Of a stretch of DNA of 35,252 nucleotides, positions 13,605 to 33,606 are shown in pieces. The translations under genes and the position numbers were made by a program. Positions within the stretch are counted from its first letter, which is position 1; every line of letters starts with the position of its first letter. The notes below the pieces were generated by a model. The model worked only from the letters and a program-made list of their open reading frames with translations, did no database searches and was not told where the DNA came from. The stretch comes from a virus, in IMG/VR virus record IMGVR_UViG_3300043399_000927, positions 1 to 35,252 of that record; one strand, given 5' to 3'.

Positions 13605-14717
13605 TCAATTACTTAAAGGTGCTTTGATAGCGGGGTGTGACTTGTAGTTCAACAAATCAAAGTCGTCAATTTCATGATGCGCAATGTCATCCAGTGGACC
13701 TGAAGCAATGTTCAGTGTAGGTAAGTTGTAAGGATCTCTACTGATCTGTTTGGTAGCTTGGTCAAGGTGGTTCAAGTAGAGGTGAGTGTCACCAAGGTTT
13801 CCGATTAACTCATCCGGGATCATGTTTACATGCTTGGCAATGATTTCCAAAAGAAGACCATACGAAGCGATGTTATACGGAATTCCTAATAAAACGTCAG
13901 CACTTCTCTGTGACCACATCAAAGAAATTGCACGTTTAGGAACATTTGCATTGTCAAACCTTGCTGTCAACTGATGACTAAGCGATGAAACTTCCATTCC
14001 TCCCGGTGCAAAGTCGTCTACAGACTTACCAGCGTGCATTTTTTTAAAGTACTCACGTCGTTCCGGTATACTCAACTCTCTTGTGTACAGTTGAAATCCA
14101 AAGTGACAAGGAGGAAGAATCATCTGGTCAATTTCACCTACATTCCAGGCAGACACCATCAAACGACGAGAGTCAGGGTTAGTTTTAAGATCATTGATTA
14201 GGTTCTGGATTTGGTCTATTTGGATTTCTTCATAGTTCCAACCACTTCTAGAATCTGAACCATAACCTTGATACTCAGGATCACTCCACCATTCTTTAGT
14301 GATTGAATTCCAAACCCTCCATTGTTTACCATAAATTGGACCTAATTCACCATATCTGTGAGCAAACTCAGGATTTACTTTGATTTGTTCTACAAACTCT
14401 TCCATGGTGTAAGCAGTTTTGTCGTTTAGTCTACTTTGACGGTAATTCTTGTACGCATCACCATTCCAGATGTTGCATCCTCTGTCAACTAGGAACTTGA
14501 TGTTGGTATCTCCACGGAGAAACCACAACAGTTCTACTGCAATGTTTTTAAAGGACATCTGTTTGGTGGTCAGTAGAGGAAACCCGTCACGCATGTTGTG
14601 ACGGATCTGTCTACCGAATACAGATATCGTACCTGTGCCGGTACGGTCTTCTTTTTTAACTCCGTTTGTCAGGATGTCCTGCAGGAGATTCTGGTAATTC
14701 TTGTCTAAGTGGTTCAT
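13605..14717 (-). CDS. thyA: Thymidylate synthase (ThyA type)
   Basis: 370 residues from the ATG at 14717, where alignment to known ThyA begins. It converts dUMP to dTMP with methylene-tetrahydrofolate. Key motifs are EDRTGTGT near residue 22, the dUMP-phosphate Arg in RRLMVSAWN, the catalytic Cys in LPPCHFGFQ, and GDTHLYLNH. The protein is about 100 residues longer than E. coli ThyA (264), with insertions before the dUMP loop and around the active site (RELSIPERREYFKKMHAGK), as in some phage enzymes. The start overlaps the upstream gene by 62 bases. It supplies dTMP for phage DNA. Confidence 0.95.
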   Translation of the reverse strand: MNHLDKNYQNLLQDILTNGVKKEDRTGTGTISVFGRQIRHNMRDGFPLLTTKQMSFKNIAVELLWFLRGDTNIKFLVDRGCNIWNGDAYKNYRQSRLNDKTAYTMEEFVEQIKVNPEFAHRYGELGPIYGKQWRVWNSITKEWWSDPEYQGYGSDSRSGWNYEEIQIDQIQNLINDLKTNPDSRRLMVSAWNVGEIDQMILPPCHFGFQLYTRELSIPERREYFKKMHAGKSVDDFAPGGMEVSSLSHQLTARFDNANVPKRAISLMWSQRSADVLLGIPYNIASYGLLLEIIAKHVNMIPDELIGNLGDTHLYLNHLDQATKQISRDPYNLPTLNIASGPLDDIAHHEIDDFDLLNYKSHPAIKAPLSN

Positions 14718-14931
14718 CAATTTCAGTGATAATTTGGATGGACAGGACATCAAAGTTGTTGCGCAGATACGCTTTTGCTTTTTTGATGTCATCGTCAGTG
14801 TGATGTTCTTCTTTCAGTAAAAAGTAATGCGCACCATCAGGTCCGGTGAATTCGTTGCGATAAAACATATCTTCAAATTCACCGTCTCCTGTAACTCCTA
14901 CAGGTTTAAACTCCTTAAATGTCATTTTCAT
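14656..14931 (-). CDS. Hypothetical protein overlapping thyA
   Basis: 91 residues. The first 70 look like a small alpha/beta domain (GPDGAHYFLLKEEHHTDDDIKKAKAYL is split by a charged loop). The last 20 residues are read in a different frame from the start of thyA, an overlap of 62 bases that is long for this genome. Function not recognised. Confidence 0.65.
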   Translation of the reverse strand: MKMTFKEFKPVGVTGDGEFEDMFYRNEFTGPDGAHYFLLKEEHHTDDDIKKAKAYLRNNFDVLSIQIITEIDEPLRQELPESPAGHPDKRS

Positions 14932-15099: not shown

Positions 15100-15978
15100 T
15101 TAGAAAGCGTAACGTATTTTGTTCCAGGGGATGACAGCATCGTGCAGGGTAGTAAATTCATGCATCCATTGGCGTTTTAAATCTGCTTTGTAGCGAACGT
15201 TTTCACTTCCAAATGCTGTAGATGTTTTAGACTCCTGGATTTCTGGAACCCACAGTAACTCTTCTCCTGGAATATCGTTGTTAATATTGTAACTGTGTTT
15301 TTCTTCATTATGTGTCAGGAAAATTACTTCTGCAAACACACTATCTTTCCACTTGTTATCAACAATGTCATTGACCATTACAAACAGTTCGTTGTAATCA
15401 CGCAACCATTCTTGGTATACGACCACCGGAGAAAAATTAATATGTACGTCATAACCCGCTTCTTTAAACAAGTTGATAGCGTGAATACGGTTGTAGATGC
15501 TGGAAGTGTTAGGTTCCAGAATAGTAGACAGTGCTTGCGGCATGAGGGAAAACCTGATCCGCACTTTGCCTTCAGGATTGTAACTAAGTAATTCTCGATT
15601 GACAAACTTAGTAGCAAAGGACGCCATAGCTGTAGGATGTGTACGGAACATTTCAAACAACGTCTTCCAATACGTGTGATACTTGAGATGCAGTGCGAAG
15701 TCTTCAAACACACCTATATCATACGTGATATATTTAGGATGTGTCTGATTTGGTTTTTTCACTATTGCATTTTCAGCATGTGTATAGATTGCACTCATAA
15801 TATCAAGCACATTTCTAGGAATGTCTAAACCTGTTGCTTTATTGCGTTTAAGATAACAGTTGTGAGTGAGAATCCCATTAGCAAAAAAGTTTTCATTAGT
15901 ATCTACAGTAAAGTTGATAACCGTCTCTTTTTTATCTATCTTATTAATAGACGTTATTTTTTGGTATTGTAAATTCAT
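15100..15978 (-). CDS. Split intein C-part (IntC) plus C-extein of SPL-like radical SAM protein
   Basis: 292 residues. Residues 1-40 are an intein C-terminal segment: block F (VINFTVDTNENFFANGIL) and block G ending THN. The splice junction is Asn40/Cys41. Residues 41-292 are the rest of a spore-photoproduct-lyase-like radical SAM enzyme: CYLKRN at the third cluster cysteine, then FATKFVNREL, RIRFSLMPQ, EPNTSSIYNRI and NFSPVVVYQEW, which line up with SplB-type sequences from memory. Trans-splicing with the product of 16530-16958 would give about 296 residues. On its own this part lacks two of three Fe-S cysteines. The start codon overlaps the opposite-strand HNH start (CATG at 15976-15979). 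Confidence 0.88.
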   Translation of the reverse strand: MNLQYQKITSINKIDKKETVINFTVDTNENFFANGILTHNCYLKRNKATGLDIPRNVLDIMSAIYTHAENAIVKKPNQTHPKYITYDIGVFEDFALHLKYHTYWKTLFEMFRTHPTAMASFATKFVNRELLSYNPEGKVRIRFSLMPQALSTILEPNTSSIYNRIHAINLFKEAGYDVHINFSPVVVYQEWLRDYNELFVMVNDIVDNKWKDSVFAEVIFLTHNEEKHSYNINNDIPGEELLWVPEIQESKTSTAFGSENVRYKADLKRQWMHEFTTLHDAVIPWNKIRYAF

Positions 15979-16822
15979 GACTTGTGGTAATTGTGGTAAA
16001 AAAATAAAAGATGGTTTCTTTTATTGTAATGATGAATGTAAAAGAATTCATTATAAACTGTTGAATCAAACAGAAGTAATTACTTTCTCATCATATATAG
16101 ATGCTTGTAAATACTTTGAAAAACACAAAAAAACACTTAAAAAATATGAAGGTGTCAAATTTACAATCGACAAACGTTTAACACCTTGCAAATCTATTAA
16201 ATGGGTAAATTGTAAAATTTGCAATAATCCTTCTCCTTCTTCAACAGCAAGATCAGGGTATTGTAAATCATGTAGTCAAAAAGGATTAGGTAAAAAACAA
16301 CAAGGAATACAAATATCAAAACGTTATATAGGTCCAGGTAATCCGAATTATATAAATGGACTTTCAAAAAGTAATGAATACAGTAATAACAGTTGGTATA
16401 AACTTAAAAGAAATTTAAACTTTACTAACTGTGCTTTGACAGGTCTTGATAATAATATTGATTATCATCATATAATACCTCGTTGGTTTTGTAAACTGGC
16501 AAGTATCGATCCTTATGACATAAATAACATCATTGGGATAAATCACTCATATCACAAAGCAATTCATCTTCTTCAGATAGATGTTTTGCTTCTACCCATC
16601 CTCTATTCCGTGTATAAAAAGGATGCTCTCCAGTTACGGTCACACTTTTTGAACCTGCTTGAATTACATAAAGTTCATGAGTTTCCCGTTGAGCAACTGC
16701 AGTCACAGTGTCTATTTCGATTGTCCCGTTATCCAGGGAGAAAGAAATTATTGCGTCTCCTTCCTGAATTTCTGCCGCAGTTTTTAACCCCTCAGGGGTG
16801 TGAACAAGAGTATCAAGAGTGA
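15977..16822 (+). CDS. HNH homing-type endonuclease, antisense inside the split intein gene
   Basis: 281 residues if the ATG at 15977 is used; a longer frame from 15866 would encode intein antisense and is unlikely. It has two zinc fingers (Cys3/6/17/21 and Cys79/82/96/99), a GPGNPNYING linker like NUMOD3, and an HNH core: NCALTG, DYHHIIP (His164-165), NNIIGINHSYHKAIH (His190, 193, 197). The last ~97 residues are antisense to the IntN gene, so they may be accidental read-through. The gene is more AT-rich than its surroundings, fitting recent arrival. It would cut intein-less alleles and promote homing. Its orientation, opposite to the host gene, is the unusual point. Confidence 0.87.
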   Translation: MTCGNCGKKIKDGFFYCNDECKRIHYKLLNQTEVITFSSYIDACKYFEKHKKTLKKYEGVKFTIDKRLTPCKSIKWVNCKICNNPSPSSTARSGYCKSCSQKGLGKKQQGIQISKRYIGPGNPNYINGLSKSNEYSNNSWYKLKRNLNFTNCALTGLDNNIDYHHIIPRWFCKLASIDPYDINNIIGINHSYHKAIHLLQIDVLLLPILYSVYKKDALQLRSHFLNLLELHKVHEFPVEQLQSQCLFRLSRYPGRKKLLRLLPEFLPQFLTPQGCEQEYQE

Positions 16823-16958
16823 CACAGTAAGAACAAGCAGCAAGACACCCATATCCGATAGGAGGCGCCATAAAATCTGTAGACCTTCCGTTAGGTGTAC
16901 AGTCTAATTTTTTACGGTTTATATCCCGTATTAATGGTTGTTTAGATGCAAACAGCAT
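16530..16958 (-). CDS. N-extein of SPL-like radical SAM protein plus split intein N-part (IntN)
   Basis: 142 residues. Residues 1-44 are the N-extein and end GCLAACSY, i.e. the first two cysteines of the radical SAM CX3CX2C cluster motif. Residue 45 is the intein Cys1 (CVTLDTLVHTPEGL, block A). Block B follows with VTGEHPFYTRNRGWV (His112). The frame stops after DMSDLSQ, exactly where an endonuclease would normally begin, so this is a 98-residue IntN. The mate is 15100-15978, in a different reading frame. The 3' two-thirds overlap the antisense HNH gene. A hairpin at 16978-17002 lies just upstream. Confidence 0.88.
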   Translation of the reverse strand: MLFASKQPLIRDINRKKLDCTPNGRSTDFMAPPIGYGCLAACSYCVTLDTLVHTPEGLKTAAEIQEGDAIISFSLDNGTIEIDTVTAVAQRETHELYVIQAGSKSVTVTGEHPFYTRNRGWVEAKHLSEEDELLCDMSDLSQ

Positions 16959-18120: not shown

Positions 18121-20049
18121 TTAGCAGGTCACGTGTTCCTTGATCATTTCGTTCATCTTACGTTTCAAAAATGCCGTGAACTCCATAGGGAATGTCGACA
18201 TGTCGGTAAGGTGAATGAAATTGCGGAACATTTTACCAGAGTCCATGGACTCAATAGCAATCTGGATCACTTGCATACCGAGTGCTTCAGTACGCTTCAC
18301 GTGTTTTGCCGTGTGTTCCATACCGTGCTCATAACTTCTGTAACCATAAGCAGCAGGATACCCGTCACTGATGACAATGAATACCACCGGATCCTGGGTG
18401 TGCTTGCGTACACGCTTGGCGCAGGTGAATATCGCTGTACCGTCACGGTTGTTGCTTTTAGCACTTACCGCAGAAAGTGAATACGGTGCATGTACCCCAG
18501 GTTCACGGTACACTTCGATGTTGGTTTCTCCACGTTCGTGATGGTCAGCTGTGTGACCATAAATAAACAAATTGATATCCGGTTGCGATTTCAGCGCTTC
18601 GTTCAAGAAAATAGCAGCTTCCTGCGCTTTTCTGATTTTTACACCACTCATGGACCCCGATTCGTCGATTAAGATACACACGCTTAGTCTATCGGTTTTT
18701 ACCTGACCGATACGTTCGTATACGGTAGGTACTTTCATGCGTGCTTCTACCAGTTTGTTCGTATCCAGTCTGCCGGAACGGGTGCTTTTGATAGAGAACT
18801 TGTAGTCCCGCGCTTTACGACGCAGCAGTGTACCGATTACCGATGCTTTTGCCATGTCCAGTGAATCACGCAAACGTTCGTACTCTCTCCTGTCACCTTT
18901 GGGTTGCTTGATCAGGATCTTTTCCGGGTGATCCATTTCATCGTACATACCCATACCGGCAAGTTCATCCAGCACGGTTTGCATTGCACGAGAGTCATCA
19001 TCACCATCGTTGTCACTGACCATGGACGCACCGTTTTTCTCGATGAGTTCTTCGAGTTTTTTGAGTGCTTCAGCGATTTCCTGGGGAGTAGGAGGAGGAG
19101 TACCTCCACCGCCGCTACTACTACCTTCAGAAGAAGGATCACTTTCACCTCCTCCTTCACCGGATCCACCGCCACCACCACCGCTTGGGTCTGGTGGTTC
19201 AACGATCATGCGGTAGATGTACTGTGCGAGTTCTTCACCCAGCTGATCACACCCTTTAAACGTTTGCGGAATACCGCCGTGGGTATCCATGATCTTTTGA
19301 ACTTCACGTAACTCACGCTGGTACTTGTCCAACAGTTCGGGTTCTAATGTACCCGGGTGCTGGATGGTACGCATGAGCAGATCGGTGAACTCCTCGTAAG
19401 GTGTCTCGAACTCTTGGGGTTCGTACTGGGTCTTGAACTTGATGTCCTTGTATTTCTGGATGAAATTGGAATATCCTGGAAACTGTTCTGCTACTTTTCT
19501 ATCCGTACGTTCGTCGTGGATAGCAAGAGAGAACATGTCCCGGAGTTTTTCTAAAGCACCATATTTTCCAGAAGGATTACCCTTTATTTTACTTTCCTGA
19601 CGCAACGTCAATCGTTTTTCAAACAAGGACATTGCCTGGCGATTGTTGTTGTACACGTTGGTAGCTGCATTACGAACGGCACCACCGAGGAACGCGTCGC
19701 TTTTTTCAGCAGCTGTGAGTTTTTCACCTTCCGCGGTTTTCTTACCTCTTTCGAGAAATTCACCAGGAAGTAAGATCACAGCTTTCTGTTGACTGGTCTG
19801 TAGGGATACAGCCTGTTCCAGGGAACTGGTGTACTTCTCGTTCTTTTCGATACCGAGCACCTGCAGCATGTTACCCACTAATCGCGCAGCTTCCCGCGGA
19901 TTAGAATTGTCATTAAGCAAAAAATCGGAAAAGTTGTTGTAACCGGATTCCCAATTGATGCCTTTGTTGGTTCTGTTTCGAAAGGTGTAACTATCGTCTT
20001 CTGAGCGACCGAACCAGTCTGCCCAGGATTTACTTGATTTATTTGTCAT
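18121..20049 (-). CDS. VWA-domain protein (CobT/MoxR-partner type)
   Basis: 642 residues from the ATG at 20049; a frame from 20085 would start inside the terminator hairpin. The C-terminal ~180 residues are a von Willebrand A domain with an intact MIDAS: DESGSMSG near 460, the Thr in NRDGTAIF and the Asp in VISDGYP. A low-complexity glycine/serine linker (about residues 285-315) separates it from a helical N-terminal part. It follows the MoxR-like ATPase (20097-21401). Such pairs act together in metal insertion or protein remodelling, as in CobS/CobT; the phage role is unknown. Confidence 0.88.
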   Translation of the reverse strand: MTNKSSKSWADWFGRSEDDSYTFRNRTNKGINWESGYNNFSDFLLNDNSNPREAARLVGNMLQVLGIEKNEKYTSSLEQAVSLQTSQQKAVILLPGEFLERGKKTAEGEKLTAAEKSDAFLGGAVRNAATNVYNNNRQAMSLFEKRLTLRQESKIKGNPSGKYGALEKLRDMFSLAIHDERTDRKVAEQFPGYSNFIQKYKDIKFKTQYEPQEFETPYEEFTDLLMRTIQHPGTLEPELLDKYQRELREVQKIMDTHGGIPQTFKGCDQLGEELAQYIYRMIVEPPDPSGGGGGGSGEGGGESDPSSEGSSSGGGGTPPPTPQEIAEALKKLEELIEKNGASMVSDNDGDDDSRAMQTVLDELAGMGMYDEMDHPEKILIKQPKGDRREYERLRDSLDMAKASVIGTLLRRKARDYKFSIKSTRSGRLDTNKLVEARMKVPTVYERIGQVKTDRLSVCILIDESGSMSGVKIRKAQEAAIFLNEALKSQPDINLFIYGHTADHHERGETNIEVYREPGVHAPYSLSAVSAKSNNRDGTAIFTCAKRVRKHTQDPVVFIVISDGYPAAYGYRSYEHGMEHTAKHVKRTEALGMQVIQIAIESMDSGKMFRNFIHLTDMSTFPMEFTAFLKRKMNEMIKEHVTC

Positions 20050-20062
20050 AACGAAAATGAAA

Positions 20063-20090
20063 AAAACCGGGGTACACGAATGCACCCCAG
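20063..20090 (-). terminator. Terminator with UUCG tetraloop between ATPase and VWA genes
   Basis: CTGGGGTGCA-TTCG-TGTACCCCGG (20090-20067) gives a 10-bp stem with two G-T pairs, closed by TTCG and followed by a run of seven T. It sits between two genes that should be co-expressed, so it may set their ratio. Confidence 0.85.
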
Positions 20091-20096
20091 TCGGGT

Positions 20097-21401
20097 TTAG
20101 AGGGCGGCGATGATGGTCTTCACTTTGGCGCGTTCGTCAGCACCATTGCCGGTCTCGAACAGGGGTAGGAACACTTGCATCAGCGATTTACCCAGGTCAA
20201 AACCATCGACCACCAGTGACGCCACCTGCAAGGTGTGTCGTACGGATACCGTAGAGGACAAGTCCTGGTTTTCGTTTTGTTTGCGGATGTTCTTGGCGAT
20301 CTGAACAATCTGTTTGGCAGTCTTTTTATCGATGCCGGTACGGTTGTTCAGTACGTTGATCTCCGCGGTTTCAGAGGGGTAGGACAGTTCCACAGGGAAG
20401 AATCGGTCCATCAACGCACGGTCGATCGACATGGTACCTGTGTATTCCGCACCCAGGTTGGCAGTAGCGATGAACACCACGCTTTCGTGTACGGGAATGT
20501 GACGCTCTTCACCATCGCCGGCGATGTCTACGGGTAAGTAGCGACGGCGGTCCAGACAAGGGAACAACAAGTTGTTGGCGCTCAACGGACTTCTACTGAG
20601 CTCATCTAAAAGGATGATCGCGTTTTCTTCCTGGATGTACTGCGCAAATGGAGCGTAGTCGAACACAGAAAAACCTTCTTTGTTCAGTCTGTGTACACCC
20701 AGTAAAGCGCTCTGTGGGTCCTGTACGGTACCCATGTCGACTACGAATAGTTTCTTACCCATGGCGTCAGCGATCAGCTTTACGATCTCGGTTTTACCGG
20801 CACCGGTAGGACCGATCAATAACTGGTTCTCACCGCGCAGGATGTTACGGATCATCAGCTTCCAGGTATCGTCCTCCACGTGGAACCCGGTGGATTTCAC
20901 GCTGGGAAGCGGATAATCGGTAGCGATGGTCGCCATGAGTCCCGTTGCTGCAGGACCTTTAGCACCAGCAACAGACGCCATACGTAAAGCGATCTTAGCA
21001 TCTACGTCTACGATTAAACCAAAAGGTTTGAACAACTCTGCGATTTCCTTTGCGTAAGCTGTCAGGTTCTGGTCCAGGTTGTACTCGATGTACGCGTCCA
21101 GGATTGGATTAGTGATCTGGTTTTCGGCGGGTACACCGTTATAGTAGCACTGCTTATCGTACTCGATTGGATACACGTCGTTGATGATCAGCTTTTTAGC
21201 AGTTTTGTCATACACGAACGATGTAGCAGCAAAAATGGTCTGCAATGGGTAACGCAGACAAGAAGCTTCCGGGAAATTGATCTCATCGATCTCGGCAGTG
21301 GAGGTGATTTCACCACTGACAACGGTTTCCTGGTTAGGCAATAATGCAGGTTTGAATGATTTAACCTGGTACTCGATCTTGAAGAATAATGTATTTGACA
21401 T
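20097..21401 (-). CDS. MoxR-type AAA+ ATPase
   Basis: 434 residues. The first ~180 residues are an uncharacterised N-terminal part. The AAA core has Walker A GPTGAGKT (197-204), Walker B AIILLDELSR, an ATANLG sensor 1 and a DRALMDRFF arginine finger, with an HTLQVASL C-terminal lid. The DELSR motif and the neighbouring VWA protein are typical of MoxR/CobS systems. The ATPase would remodel a target presented by the VWA protein. An operator-rich region lies upstream (21677-21778). Confidence 0.9.
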   Translation of the reverse strand: MSNTLFFKIEYQVKSFKPALLPNQETVVSGEITSTAEIDEINFPEASCLRYPLQTIFAATSFVYDKTAKKLIINDVYPIEYDKQCYYNGVPAENQITNPILDAYIEYNLDQNLTAYAKEIAELFKPFGLIVDVDAKIALRMASVAGAKGPAATGLMATIATDYPLPSVKSTGFHVEDDTWKLMIRNILRGENQLLIGPTGAGKTEIVKLIADAMGKKLFVVDMGTVQDPQSALLGVHRLNKEGFSVFDYAPFAQYIQEENAIILLDELSRSPLSANNLLFPCLDRRRYLPVDIAGDGEERHIPVHESVVFIATANLGAEYTGTMSIDRALMDRFFPVELSYPSETAEINVLNNRTGIDKKTAKQIVQIAKNIRKQNENQDLSSTVSVRHTLQVASLVVDGFDLGKSLMQVFLPLFETGNGADERAKVKTIIAAL

Positions 21402-24434: not shown

Positions 24435-24738
24435 CGGAGTTTAATGTTGCACTGGTGATGGTTTCAGGATTGAACAATGCTTCGGTAACAGCAATCTCGT
24501 TGAGATTTGTAATGACAGTTTCGTCAACAAACAAAACGTTTTGCTGATTGATTCGAAGATTGAAATAGCGATGAGCTGTTGCATTCAACTTCATTATCGG
24601 GTGTTTTTCAACAGCTACAGGGACAATGAAGTAAGGATGCGGTTGTAAGTTCTGGTCCACAAGGACTGGACAAACTGATGTAGACAGTACTCGACCGTCC
24701 ACCAGATTAATGTTGTAAATACGATATGTGTTTTTCAT
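24421..24738 (-). CDS. Hypothetical protein
   Basis: 105 residues from the ATG at 24738, beta-rich (NINLVDGRVLSTSVCPVLV). It is the first protein gene downstream of the RNA cluster at 24.87-25.36 kb and lies 43 bases after its terminator. Confidence 0.66.
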   Translation of the reverse strand: MKNTYRIYNINLVDGRVLSTSVCPVLVDQNLQPHPYFIVPVAVEKHPIMKLNATAHRYFNLRINQQNVLFVDETVITNLNEIAVTEALFNPETITSATLNSDENI

Positions 24739-24781
24739 AGGTTTAAATGTTAAATGTTTGAAGTTTATGGTTGTATATCTG

Positions 24782-24811
24782 CAAAAAACCCAGGGTGCAG
24801 AAACCCTGGGC
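24782..24811 (-). terminator. Terminator at the end of RNA cluster 1
   Basis: ACCCTGGG-type arms: CCCAGGGT (24789-24796) and ACCCTGGG (24803-24810), then T6 on the minus strand. It stops the transcript carrying the tRNA-like elements before the protein operon. Confidence 0.85.
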
Positions 24812-24872
24812 ATTTGTAATTGCAGTCTATGAAATACAACATTTCACTCCTCATCTATCTGCGTCGATGTAG

Positions 24873-24954
24873 TAGTCAGGACATGATTCGAACATGTATG
24901 AACTTTCGTTCTCGGGAAGGTTCCCTAGCGTCTTTCCAATTCCGCCACCTGACT
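24873..24954 (-). tRNA. tRNA-like gene (Leu/Ser type) with abnormal anticodon arm
   Basis: Acceptor AGTCAGG/CCTGACT, TG at 8-9, D-arm GCG...CGC, T-arm ACATG-TTCGAAT-CATGT and discriminator A are all standard for a class II tRNA. The variable arm is GAAC-GAAA-GTTC. Instead of a 7-base anticodon loop the middle is CTAGGGAACCTTCCCGAG, a near-palindrome that leaves a loop of 2 to 6 bases. No plausible anticodon can be assigned. Either a degenerate gene or a tRNA mimic. Confidence 0.65.
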
Positions 24955-24960
24955 ATATTT

Positions 24961-24980
24961 GCTGTCTTTCCAGCTGTCAG
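24961..24980 (-). ncRNA. TGACAGC/GGAAAG hairpin, copy 1
   Basis: Minus strand CTGACA-GCTG-GAAAGA-CAGC. It lies 6 bases before the tRNA-like gene at 24873-24954. Two related copies exist at 25152-25174 and 32191-32212. Confidence 0.55.
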
Positions 24981-25062
24981 ATACTTCTATATCAATGAGG
25001 TAGATTGTTTTTGTTCTGTTCATCATACTGAATCCTTTCTGGAACTCTACCAAAACCAAGTG

Positions 25063-25146
25063 TAGTTAGGACAGGAACTGCCCCTGTAAGGATATTTAAA
25101 TCAGATCAATAATCTGATACCTAAATGCACCTTGTGCTACCTAACT
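25063..25146 (-). ncRNA. tRNA-shaped RNA without canonical T-loop
   Basis: Acceptor-like AGTTAGG/CCTAACT, a short GCAC-AAG-GTGC hairpin in the D-arm position, a TCAGA-TTATTGA-TCTGA arm, and an ACAGG-GGCAGTT-CCTGT arm whose loop lacks TTCRANT. The overall size (84 bases) and discriminator A imitate a tRNA but the conserved D- and T-loop bases are missing. Confidence 0.5.
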
Positions 25147-25151
25147 ATGTT

Positions 25152-25174
25152 GCCAGTACTTTCCTGGCTGTCAC
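25152..25174 (-). ncRNA. TGACAGC/GGAAAG hairpin, copy 2
   Basis: Minus strand GTGACA-GCCAG-GAAAGTA-CTGGC, 5 bases before the tRNA-shaped RNA at 25063-25146. Upstream (25178-25225) a hairpin AGGCA-AAACAAT-TGTCT is enclosed by CTAGTG/CACTAG. Confidence 0.55.
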
Positions 25175-25278
25175 GATTTTCCTAGTGTCAGACAATTGTT
25201 TTGCCTCTCATTACCTCACTAGTTTTGGGGAGTGTCTACCTGATTACACACATCCATTCCACCTTGCAGGGGAAAATG

Positions 25279-25361
25279 TACCAGAGACAGGATTTGAACC
25301 TGTATTTTACCCGAATCGTGCAATGCACCTAAGGCTGCGTCTACCATTCCGCCACTCTGGT
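25279..25361 (-). tRNA. tRNA-Leu-like gene with distorted anticodon arm
   Basis: Acceptor ACCAGAG/CTCTGGT, TG, D-arm GCG-GAATGGTAGA-CGC, T-arm ACAGG-TTCAAAT-CCTGT, discriminator A: clearly derived from tRNA-Leu. The segment between D and T arms is 33 bases and contains CTTAGGT, which would be a UAG anticodon loop, but only two base pairs close it and a GTGCATTGCAC palindrome follows. Isotype is therefore uncertain. Confidence 0.65.
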
Positions 25362-25370
25362 ATATCTACA

Positions 25371-25658
25371 CTATTTAAACTTAATAGCTTCGAATGTTTT
25401 TCCAGTGTCTGTCATGACATAATAACTTGTATTTTCATGAAGTAAGTGAGTACTAGAATCACCAATAATAATTCCTTGAACATTTAAGTCGTCAAGTTCT
25501 TCAATACAATAATTTTCCTGACTGTAAAAGTTCAGGTTGTTAAGGAATTTTTCATCATTAGACATCTGTCTTCTGTTGAATAAAATGTAACTCTGTCCAA
25601 TTTCGTGATTGGACTCAACACCGTTAGTGTCGTTTTGAATTGATCTTAATGTATACAT
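25371..25658 (-). CDS. Hypothetical protein
   Basis: 95 residues from the ATG at 25658; the longer frame from 25775 would translate the tRNA-Leu and is rejected. It has an acidic, beta-rich middle (IEELDDLNVQGIIIGDSS). It is a protein gene set between two RNA genes, with its stop (TAG) 10 bases before the next tRNA-like gene. Confidence 0.68.
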   Translation of the reverse strand: MYTLRSIQNDTNGVESNHEIGQSYILFNRRQMSNDEKFLNNLNFYSQENYCIEELDDLNVQGIIIGDSSTHLLHENTSYYVMTDTGKTFEAIKFK

Positions 25659-25678
25659 ATATTTATAAATGGGTTTTG

Positions 25679-25759
25679 TGCTCAAGGTCGGATTCGAACC
25701 GACACAACTTGCGTTACTGCCGCCTGAAGACAGCGCGTCTACCTTTTCGCCACTTGAGC
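25679..25759 (-). tRNA. tRNA-Leu (anticodon CAG)
   Basis: Complete cloverleaf: acceptor GCTCAAG/CTTGAGC, D-arm GCG-AAAAGGTAGA-CGC, anticodon arm CTGTC-TTCAGGC-GGCAG with CAG at positions 34-36, variable arm AAC-GCAA-GTT, T-arm GTCGG-TTCGAAT-CCGAC, discriminator A. CCA is not encoded. This is the one fully normal tRNA in the window and serves as an internal reference for the odd ones. Confidence 0.93.
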
Positions 25760-29171: not shown

Positions 29172-29264
29172 TGGAGCTGCACACCGGAATCGAACCGGTA
29201 CTTGTCACAGGGTGTCTTTTGCAAGGACAATGTGACTGGGACGACGCATCTACCCAAGTGCAGC
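29172..29264 (-). tRNA. tRNA-like gene with extended anticodon arm (possible GCA loop)
   Basis: Acceptor GCTGCAC/GTGCAGC, discriminator T and an encoded CCA (29174-29172), T-arm ACCGG-TTCGATT-CCGGT. The middle contains GTCACA/TGTGAC enclosing TGTC-CTTGCAAAA-GACA, i.e. a bulged double-length arm whose apical loop has TTGCAAA, which could present a Cys GCA anticodon. A D-arm is not clear. Not a normal tRNA, but the CCA argues it may be charged or matured. Confidence 0.6.
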
Positions 29265-32325: not shown

Positions 32326-32429
32326 TAGTCAGGGTGGGATTCGAACCCACAGTTCCTAAGTCTATGAATTTCGCGATAGTTCGAAGATCCATTGCTGGAT
32401 CCTCGCTTCGGATATTACGACACCTGACT
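32326..32429 (-). tRNA. tRNA-like gene, 104 bases, abnormal central region
   Basis: Acceptor AGTCAGG/CCTGACT (same as 24873-24954), T-arm GTGGG-TTCGAAT-CCCAC, discriminator A. The middle is about 20 bases too long. It holds AGGATCC-AGCAAT-GGATCTT and a CTAT/ATAG hairpin rather than D and anticodon arms. A CTTAGGA (possible UAG loop) occurs but overlaps the T-stem. Isotype undetermined. Confidence 0.55.
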
Positions 32430-32596: not shown

Positions 32597-33049
32597 TTAC
32601 ATGTACATAGAAACAATCTTGTTAATGAACTCTTCAGAAGTAGTAGAAGATTCTGCAAAAGCAGCTTCAACAATGATGTTGTTAGCAATGTCTTTAGTAG
32701 AAGGTAGACCTTTAGATCTGGAAGATAAACTTACACTTGTTGGATCATACCCATAACGAGTGTTGACTGCACAGATTCGAAGATTGTCTTTCTCGTATTT
32801 TTTGTCGAATTGCTCACGCTTTTTCTCAAACTTATCGATCAAGTCATTAAGTTCATTACGTTTGTTTCTGATGTTTTCAATCAGCGTAACAAACTCTTTG
32901 AAGTCTTTAGATTCTTCAAGTTTAGCAATCTTTGCTTTTCTTGCTTCGTCATTGGATTTTTCAATTCTTGTTTGCACCTGTTCTGCAAGTGCTTCAGCAA
33001 GCGTTTTAGTGATTTTAATACCTGCGGTTTTCATGGTTGTGTTTTTCAT
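32597..33049 (-). CDS. Hypothetical coiled-coil protein
   Basis: 150 residues from the ATG at 33049; a longer frame from 33070 is possible. Residues 15-85 are a long charged heptad region (LAEQVQTRIEKSNDEARKAK, NELNDLIDKFEKKREQFDKK). The C-terminal part (SSRSKGLPSTKDIANNIIVE) is less ordered. It is transcribed from the repeat-rich region at 33050-33606. Confidence 0.72.
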   Translation of the reverse strand: MKNTTMKTAGIKITKTLAEALAEQVQTRIEKSNDEARKAKIAKLEESKDFKEFVTLIENIRNKRNELNDLIDKFEKKREQFDKKYEKDNLRICAVNTRYGYDPTSVSLSSRSKGLPSTKDIANNIIVEAAFAESSTTSEEFINKIVSMYM

Positions 33050-33606
33050 ACCTGCATTGCTGCAACGCACTAGACCTAAATGCTGTTTATACTCGTCTAG
33101 TCGAGTTGGGATCCGGACAGACCCGCGGTGGTTTCCCTACTCTTCCTAATAGAGAGAAGAGAGAAACACTATATAGAGAGAGATACAGAGAGAGAGTAAT
33201 CATCCTATATAGAGAAACAACTATATGTATGTATGTAAGTACACACAGTACGTAAGAAGTGTCCATGTGGATAGTTAGATGGATAGTTACCAGGATATTT
33301 ACCAGGATAGTTACTACAATCTACCGTATAGACGTCACCCTGAGTGAATTAGCTATCTATTGCACCCGTTCGAGGTAAAAACTAGATAATTCAGTGTTGT
33401 CAGAGTCGAAGAATGTGTTGAGTGGTGAAGGGTCACTCCCCCGCGTCCTCACTCACGTTCACCACAAAACAACTCCCCCGGGTGAGATTCTTCTCTCTAT
33501 TACTCTATATAGAGAGAGAACACACCCAAGGGATAGTTGTATAGTATGCTACATACTGCGTAATGATACCACTAGCAGTGTCTAGTAAGCGATAATCGTT
33601 TGATTA
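33050..33606. other. Noncoding region with short direct repeats
   Basis: No convincing gene in 557 bases. It holds CTATATAGAGA three times (33169, 33205, 33505), several AGAGAGAG runs, and GGATAGTTA-type repeats at 33269, 33281, 33293 (one change), 33305 and 33531. The four clustered copies are 12 bases apart, an iteron-like spacing. Near 33591-33608 GATAATC/GATTATC forms a hairpin at the 3' end of the next gene. Promoter, replication origin or both are possible. Confidence 0.6.
33269..33313. repeat. Iteron-like GGATAGTTA array
   Basis: GGATAGTTA at 33269, GGATAGTTA at 33281, GGATATTTA at 33293 and GGATAGTTA at 33305, each 12 bases apart. Regular spacing suggests a protein-binding array. Confidence 0.65.

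Follow-up and report, generated by a model that had tools for sequence, protein, structure and literature searches.

We analyzed a window of 35,252 bp, which is the whole of the IMG/VR virus record IMGVR_UViG_3300043399_000927, and all window coordinates refer to positions 1–35,252. On its minus strand, a gene of the radical S-adenosylmethionine (SAM) type is divided between two open reading frames (ORFs) by a predicted split intein, the first ORF encoding the N-extein and the N-terminal intein half (IntN), and the second, the C-terminal intein half (IntC) and the C-extein, while an HNH homing-endonuclease-like gene runs antisense to them (Table 1). An earlier note, made from the sequence of the window, had reported the two minus-strand genes, and both ORFs match its positions exactly. 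It had also placed the HNH gene between the halves on the plus strand; the strand is correct, but the ORF (15977–16822) extends beyond the gap and continues over IntN (16533–16826).

Table 1. Predicted features of the cassette and of its host gene (a slash within a motif marks a splice junction).
Feature	Position	Strand	Details
First minus-strand gene	16530–16958	−	N-extein and IntN
Second minus-strand gene	15100–15978	−	IntC and C-extein
N-extein	16827–16958	−	first 44 residues of the spl-family radical SAM protein, to ...GCLAACSY; alignment to empty-site alleles unbroken
IntN	16530–16826	−	98 codons plus stop; Cys1, blocks A and B; matches TIGR01445, PF14890 (with IntC) and PDB inteins
IntC	15859–15978	−	40 residues; blocks F and G, C-terminal HN/C; matches TIGR01443, PDB gp41-1 and other inteins
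C-extein	15100–15858	−	252 residues from the +1 Cys, plus stop; TIGR03886, E 9.8e-80
HNH homing-endonuclease-like gene	15977–16822	+	281 aa plus stop; two zinc-ribbon-like Cys4 sets, HNH motif, C-terminal extension
HNH motif	16466–16567	+	HH 16466–16471, N 16526–16528, H 16553–16555, H 16565–16567; spans the IntN stop
Double-coding stretch	16533–16822	both	IntN (−) against the last ~95 residues of the HNH protein (+)
CATG	15976–15979	both	palindrome common to the divergent start codons of IntC (−) and HNH (+)
Promoter-like element	15914–15942	+	TTGATA-N17-TATCTT, antisense inside IntC, upstream of the HNH ATG
Whole mobile cassette	15859–16826	both	968 nt; missing from empty-site alleles

By its profile matches, the host protein is a TIGR03886 “spl family” radical SAM protein. 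The joined exteins match this model with an E-value of 2e-93 over model positions 63–346 and without a gap at the junction, and the predicted spliced product passes PF20903 (SPL; 81 bits, cutoff 27), but its 313 bits fall short of the TIGR03886 equivalog cutoff of 437.55 bits, so that the protein is homologous to the family with its function not assured. The spore-photoproduct-lyase-like host of the earlier note therefore stands as a family assignment, spore photoproduct lyase itself being unproven; no paper linking this enzyme with an intein was found in literature searches. The insertion point is directly 5′ of the codon for the third cysteine of the CX3CX2C radical SAM cluster motif. Two of the three cluster cysteines are thus held by the N-extein, and the third is also the +1 cysteine of the splicing reaction. 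Given the junctions GCLAACSY/CVTLDT and ILTHN/CYLKRN, the predicted spliced product is GCLAACSYCYLKRN.

Blocks A, B, F and G, described earlier as readable, have all been identified in the intein halves: Cys1 in SY/CVTLDT, block B as VTVTGEHPFYT, block F as VINFTVDTNENFFANG, and block G as ILTHN/C. The proposed comparison with intein models gave scores above the cutoff in each case, with 28.3 bits for TIGR01445 (intein_Nterm) against IntN (cutoff 24.5), 23.8 bits for TIGR01443 (intein_Cterm) against IntC (cutoff 15.6), and 58.8 bits for PF14890 (Intein_splicing) against the concatenated IntN and IntC (cutoff 35.8). Solved PDB inteins, including NrdJ-1 and gp41-1, are matched by the intein halves in phmmer searches, and TIGR01445 also matches each of the 19 homologous N-halves in the alignment (E ≤ 0.01). 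Moreover, at every locus IntN and IntC are separate genes, IntN with its own stop and IntC with its own ATG, 539–551 nt apart. These motifs and the separate genes argue for a naturally split intein, by which the exteins would be joined in trans. One could suppose instead that the intein no longer splices, or that the enzyme halves act as two subunits, with the cassette kept by nuclease activity alone; splicing of this cassette is a prediction, and the ShiLan element (PMC11855218), an HNH insertion, persists in a phage gene with no detectable splicing element. However, the splice residues Cys1, TxxH and HN/C are retained in all aligned members, the C-extein is under normal purifying selection (divergence of 0.274/0.184/0.468 at the three codon positions), and unspliced halves would carry two and one cluster ligands, respectively, because the split falls inside CX3CX2C. 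We therefore consider loss of splicing improbable.

Scanning of IMG/VR with both gene halves as queries yielded the same split intein at the same site in about 40 loci before removal of duplicates and in 27 distinct cassettes, the window included, after it. Three more distinct loci (L152/L153, L154 and L155) were reached through the nuclease, bringing the total to 30 distinct cassettes, the window again included. With such recurrence, the layout is far beyond chance. An IntN of 98 codons and a gap of 548 or 551 nt, counted from the IntN stop to the IntC ATG, are found in 26 of the 27 cassettes, the exception being L103 with a 101-codon IntN and a 539-nt gap; the gap length equals 2 modulo 3 in all of them, and the antisense ORF has 273–281 aa across the 27. 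The uninterrupted gene, that is, the empty allele, was found at 70 loci, and at the insertion point these alleles align without any break. For example, the joined flanks of L008 agree at 94% with the empty alleles L066 and L078 across the insertion point, over a stretch exceeding 1.1 kb.

As the window is one contig only, one might suspect an artefact, with misassembly or a frameshift giving this appearance to a single ordinary gene or to a cis-intein that has a nuclease inside it, and the earlier note had taken homologues with a single ORF as a possible sign of assembly error. Such homologues do exist, but they are true empty sites, and independent contigs repeat the split form. The proposed search of other phages for the same insertion point gave 29 further distinct cassettes in IMG/VR, so many relatives share the interruption of the radical SAM gene at this position by a split intein that has an HNH gene antisense to it. 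Assembly error is rejected because these 29 cassettes repeat both the layout and the site. More than 30 independent contigs have the same layout with a gap length constant modulo 3, and no sense frameshift can join the halves, since the nuclease is on the opposite strand. The homologues thus rule the artefact out, and its probability is negligible.

The HNH ORF occupies the whole 548–551-nt gap, then runs antisense through nearly all of IntN, and ends 4–25 nt inside the first IntN codons; in L008 and L100 its ATG is three codons further upstream. Residues invariant in the 23 aligned members are C3, C6, C17 and C21, C79, C82, C96 and C99, and H164, H165, N184, H193 and H197. In the window, N184 is encoded just before the IntN stop, and the H193 and H197 codons are inside IntN. 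The invariant pattern DYHHIIP...NNIIGLN...HK..H, which contains the HNH residues (HH...N...H...H) and is accompanied by the zinc-binding cysteines, makes the predicted HNH assignment clear. The window protein matches no Pfam, PHROG or NCBIfam family. A search of IMG/VR with the HNH protein alone found nothing; relatives were detected there only with the alignment as the query, and only within this cassette. No relatives were found in bacterial genomes, and GenBank phages gave only noise.

HNH genes are common in phage introns, and the gap might accordingly be a group I or group II intron carrying such a gene, with RNA splicing giving a continuous intein. However, the Rfam search of the window gave no intron, an antisense coding frame takes up the gap, whose variation has a codon-position pattern, and each locus has its own IntN stop and its own IntC ATG. 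We regard an intron as very unlikely, and a group I intron with an antisense homing gene in particular was rejected, as Rfam finds no ribozyme core in the gap.

In the overlap, the HNH wobble base is opposite position 2 of the IntN codon, and IntN position 3 is opposite HNH position 2; because of this phase almost no change is silent in both frames. If the locus were an ordinary fractured gene, the nuclease would work only through its gap part, and the frame over IntN would be a passive by-product of IntN conservation. Indeed, other fractured genes are known to have a nuclease between their halves, and the antisense frame of any conserved protein appears partly conserved. However, two of the four invariant HNH histidines, H193 and H197, fall inside the overlap, and the HNH frame has no internal stop over IntN at any locus. 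Under a null model of either synonymous resampling from the codon usage of the family or within-gene permutation of IntN codons, draws contain about 3–6 stops and are stop-free in at most 1.2% of cases (P 0.0005–0.012). The antisense omega (dNN/dNS) over IntN is 0.36 (bootstrap 0.23–0.54) in the HNH phase; the two remaining phases give 1.12 and 1.21, and the C-extein, taken in the HNH phase as a control, gives 1.26. Per site, substitutions that alter IntN and leave HNH unchanged occur roughly three times as often as those altering both proteins. Divergence at IntN codon positions 1, 2 and 3 is 0.098, 0.121 and 0.084; the lowest value is that of position 3, which is usually free to vary, and the highest that of position 2, where the HNH wobble base falls. 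The part of the HNH protein opposite IntN is its best conserved portion (85% mean identity vs 77%).

The synonymous difference changes sharply along IntN. It is 0.24–0.55 per codon in codons 1–8, drops at codon 9, where the HNH frame stops in 22 of 26 loci, and is 0.03–0.12 per codon in codons 15–98; outside the cassette it is normal, 0.51 in the N-extein and 0.41–0.49 in the C-extein. Recent spread alone was rejected as the cause of the low synonymous variation, as variation is normal in IntN codons 1–8 and IntC codons 28–40, parts of this same cassette that neither the HNH frame nor the promoter-like element covers. The same ~290 bp thus codes, under selection, for IntN on one strand and for the C-terminal third of the HNH protein on the other, and a passive antisense frame seems to us a poor explanation of these data.

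The nuclease gene may also have its own promoter. In most relatives, the promoter-like element inside IntC reads TTGACA or TTAACA, 17 nt, and TATCTTTG (TATTTTTG in one), and it is found at a constant distance before the HNH ATG in 25 of the 27 cassettes. It resembles both the sigma-70 type and the TAnnTTTG type, the latter being known from Bacteroidota. In IntC codons 11–27, the segment that gives this element when read antisense, synonymous variation is 0.12 vs 0.30 and 0.37 on the two sides, and uncommon codons are fixed there, namely AAC for Asn22 (16 of 16, usage 22%), ATA for Ile14 (16 of 16) and AAG for Lys13 (15 of 16). This suppressed variation appears to be better evidence for a promoter than the consensus matches, which alone are not significant, and suggests an antisense promoter driving HNH expression.

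The distribution of the cassette is patchy: on the C-extein tree, the presence of the intein needs 13 gains or losses, at least four of them forced by well-supported branches. The cassettes of L104 and L109 are only 1% different, while their C-exteins are 26% different, and the divergence of their flanks is about 0.1 beside the insertion, rising to 0.3–0.5 further out. The converse is observed in the pairs L104/L112 and L009/L004, where the cassette and the near flank are divergent and the distal part of the gene is 0–7% different. These tracts indicate gene conversion centered on the cassette, as expected for homing. The patchy presence, the near-identical cassettes in divergent genes and the conversion tracts provide indirect evidence for mobility into cassette-free alleles. 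The tracts in L112, L104, L009 and L004 could also be used for estimating the conversion tract length.

We interpret the locus, with a probability of about 85%, as a mobile split-intein/HNH homing cassette of ~968 bp, coded on both strands, that is a variant of the fractured-gene type. IntN and IntC would fuse both extein halves by trans-splicing and restore CX3CX2C, hence the radical SAM cluster, and we propose that the insertion therefore spares the phage the loss of the enzyme. The HNH protein would be made from its own antisense promoter inside IntC and would cut cassette-free alleles during co-infection, and repair would then copy the cassette together with a few hundred bp of flank into the cut allele. 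Homing genes usually decay after fixation of their element. One may speculate that here the overlap protects the nuclease from such decay, because the 3′ end of its gene cannot be lost without breaking IntN; the nuclease frame is intact in 27 of 27 distinct cassettes, in a sample drawn by searches with these same proteins. We also incline, with less assurance than for the homing cassette as such, to the view that this is a self-locking homing element, with the nuclease and the split intein on the two strands of the same DNA, each fixing the other, and as far as we found such a class is undescribed.

Several observations weigh against the homing-cassette interpretation. The HNH protein reaches no Pfam gathering score, the best match being HNH_2 with an E-value of 0.06, which 10 of the 23 members show; AlphaFold gave a poor model (pLDDT 57.5), and the fold search gave no match. 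Because of these sub-threshold matches and the poor model, the HNH assignment rests on the residue pattern. The sense constraint on IntN in the overlap is borderline by the overlap method (dNN/dSN 0.57, 0.32–1.02), so that purifying selection on the sense frame is suggested mainly by the intein homology (19 of 19 members). Promoter-like sites of the sigma-70 type are no commoner in the scan than in shuffles (10 vs 7.8). Single conversion tracts from metagenome contigs could be chimeric assemblies, though this is unlikely for the repeated pattern. Finally, trans-splicing, DNA cleavage and expression are all steps that we infer from the sequences.

Dassa et al. (2009, doi 10.1093/nar/gkp095) reportedly described fractured genes in which a homing endonuclease gene lies between the halves of a split intein; this work is cited in PMC7090010. 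Here as there, a conserved enzyme gene is split by a naturally split intein, and a nuclease gene is associated with the gap. The host enzyme gene is interrupted at a conserved site and has empty alleles (70 empty and 27 filled distinct loci), as in fractured genes; a typical fractured gene would have its nuclease between the intein halves and free of shared coding sequence, while the HNH ORF overlaps ~290 nt of IntN antisense.

For further comparison we used about 50 gp41-1-type loci (L159–L208), collected with a gp41-1 IntN sequence as the query. There, the main nuclease-like ORF, where present, is on the same strand, appears GIY-YIG-like by eye, and begins about 316 nt from Cys1, after the IntN stop, in gaps of 231–1597 nt. 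In contrast, the nuclease of the cassette studied here is of the HNH type, is antisense, overlaps IntN nearly completely and begins at the IntC start codon; the gap measures 548–551 nt in all loci save one (539 nt).

Two other systems share single features with the cassette. ShiLan is a hidden out-of-frame HNH endonuclease in a phage methylase, that is, an HNH homing gene overlapping another open frame within a mobile insertion (PMC11855218), but there the two frames are on the same strand, no splicing element is detectable and the in-frame product has no known function, whereas in the cassette the HNH gene overlaps, in antisense, one half of an intein. Myxomycete nuclear group I introns carry antisense homing endonuclease genes, on the strand opposite to the self-splicing element and the host gene, and an internal antisense promoter has been proposed for them (PMC9548176); however, these genes are located in peripheral loops of the ribozyme with no shared protein coding reported, and the cassette has no ribozyme. 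Moreover, profile matches of the Rv2578c-type intein-containing radical SAM protein (NF038136) cross the extein/intein borders around the cysteine motif, and the extents of these matches, taken by themselves, suggest a similar insertion point in a related enzyme; the NF038136 model is contiguous, while the cassette is split.

Nothing matching antisense or overlapping intein nucleases was found in the literature searched, the 2009 fractured-genes paper being outside that search. As far as we found, an antisense nuclease sharing coding DNA with a split intein is thus undescribed in this literature; we make no claim of priority for the antisense nuclease as such.

There is debate about the function of proteins encoded antisense in prokaryotes and their viruses (PMC7457138), and the cassette provides a well-supported case of antisense protein-coding overlap, with 26 homologues, a sharp synonymous boundary and an inversion of codon-position variability. 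The intact nuclease frames of all 27 cassettes could be explained, in a way open to testing, by the overlap, which couples the nuclease to a splicing half that is essential. The cassettes also supply about 30 new candidate natural split inteins (98+40 residues), which share one fixed extein context and are of interest for protein ligation, and their putative HNH nucleases form a new family whose predicted target lies within a conserved motif.

A genome scan with the N-half yielded unrelated Hint/intein proteins only. Among the loci unrelated to the cassette, two from Legionella (L216 and L219) have two or three tandem Hint/intein-like domains in a glycine-rich context.

Several other features were observed in the window, all on the minus strand where a strand is given. 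Close downstream of the radical SAM region is a thymidylate synthase gene (13605–14792, −), whose best match among annotated phages is in Flavobacterium phages (50–52% identity). Adjacent genes for a MoxR-type AAA ATPase and a VWA-domain protein (CbbQ/CobT-like) occupy 18121–21401 (−), and the VWA protein has its closest matches in a human gut phage record and a Bacteroides phage. A uracil-DNA glycosylase is encoded at 756–1493 (−). Transfer RNAs were predicted at 24725–25759, 29172–29264 and 32326–32429, where ARAGORN and Rfam concur only on 25678–25759 (−), the rest being uncertain. A Pistol ribozyme is found in this phage genome at 33046–33106 (−), with an Rfam score of 56.2 bits against the threshold of 34.5.
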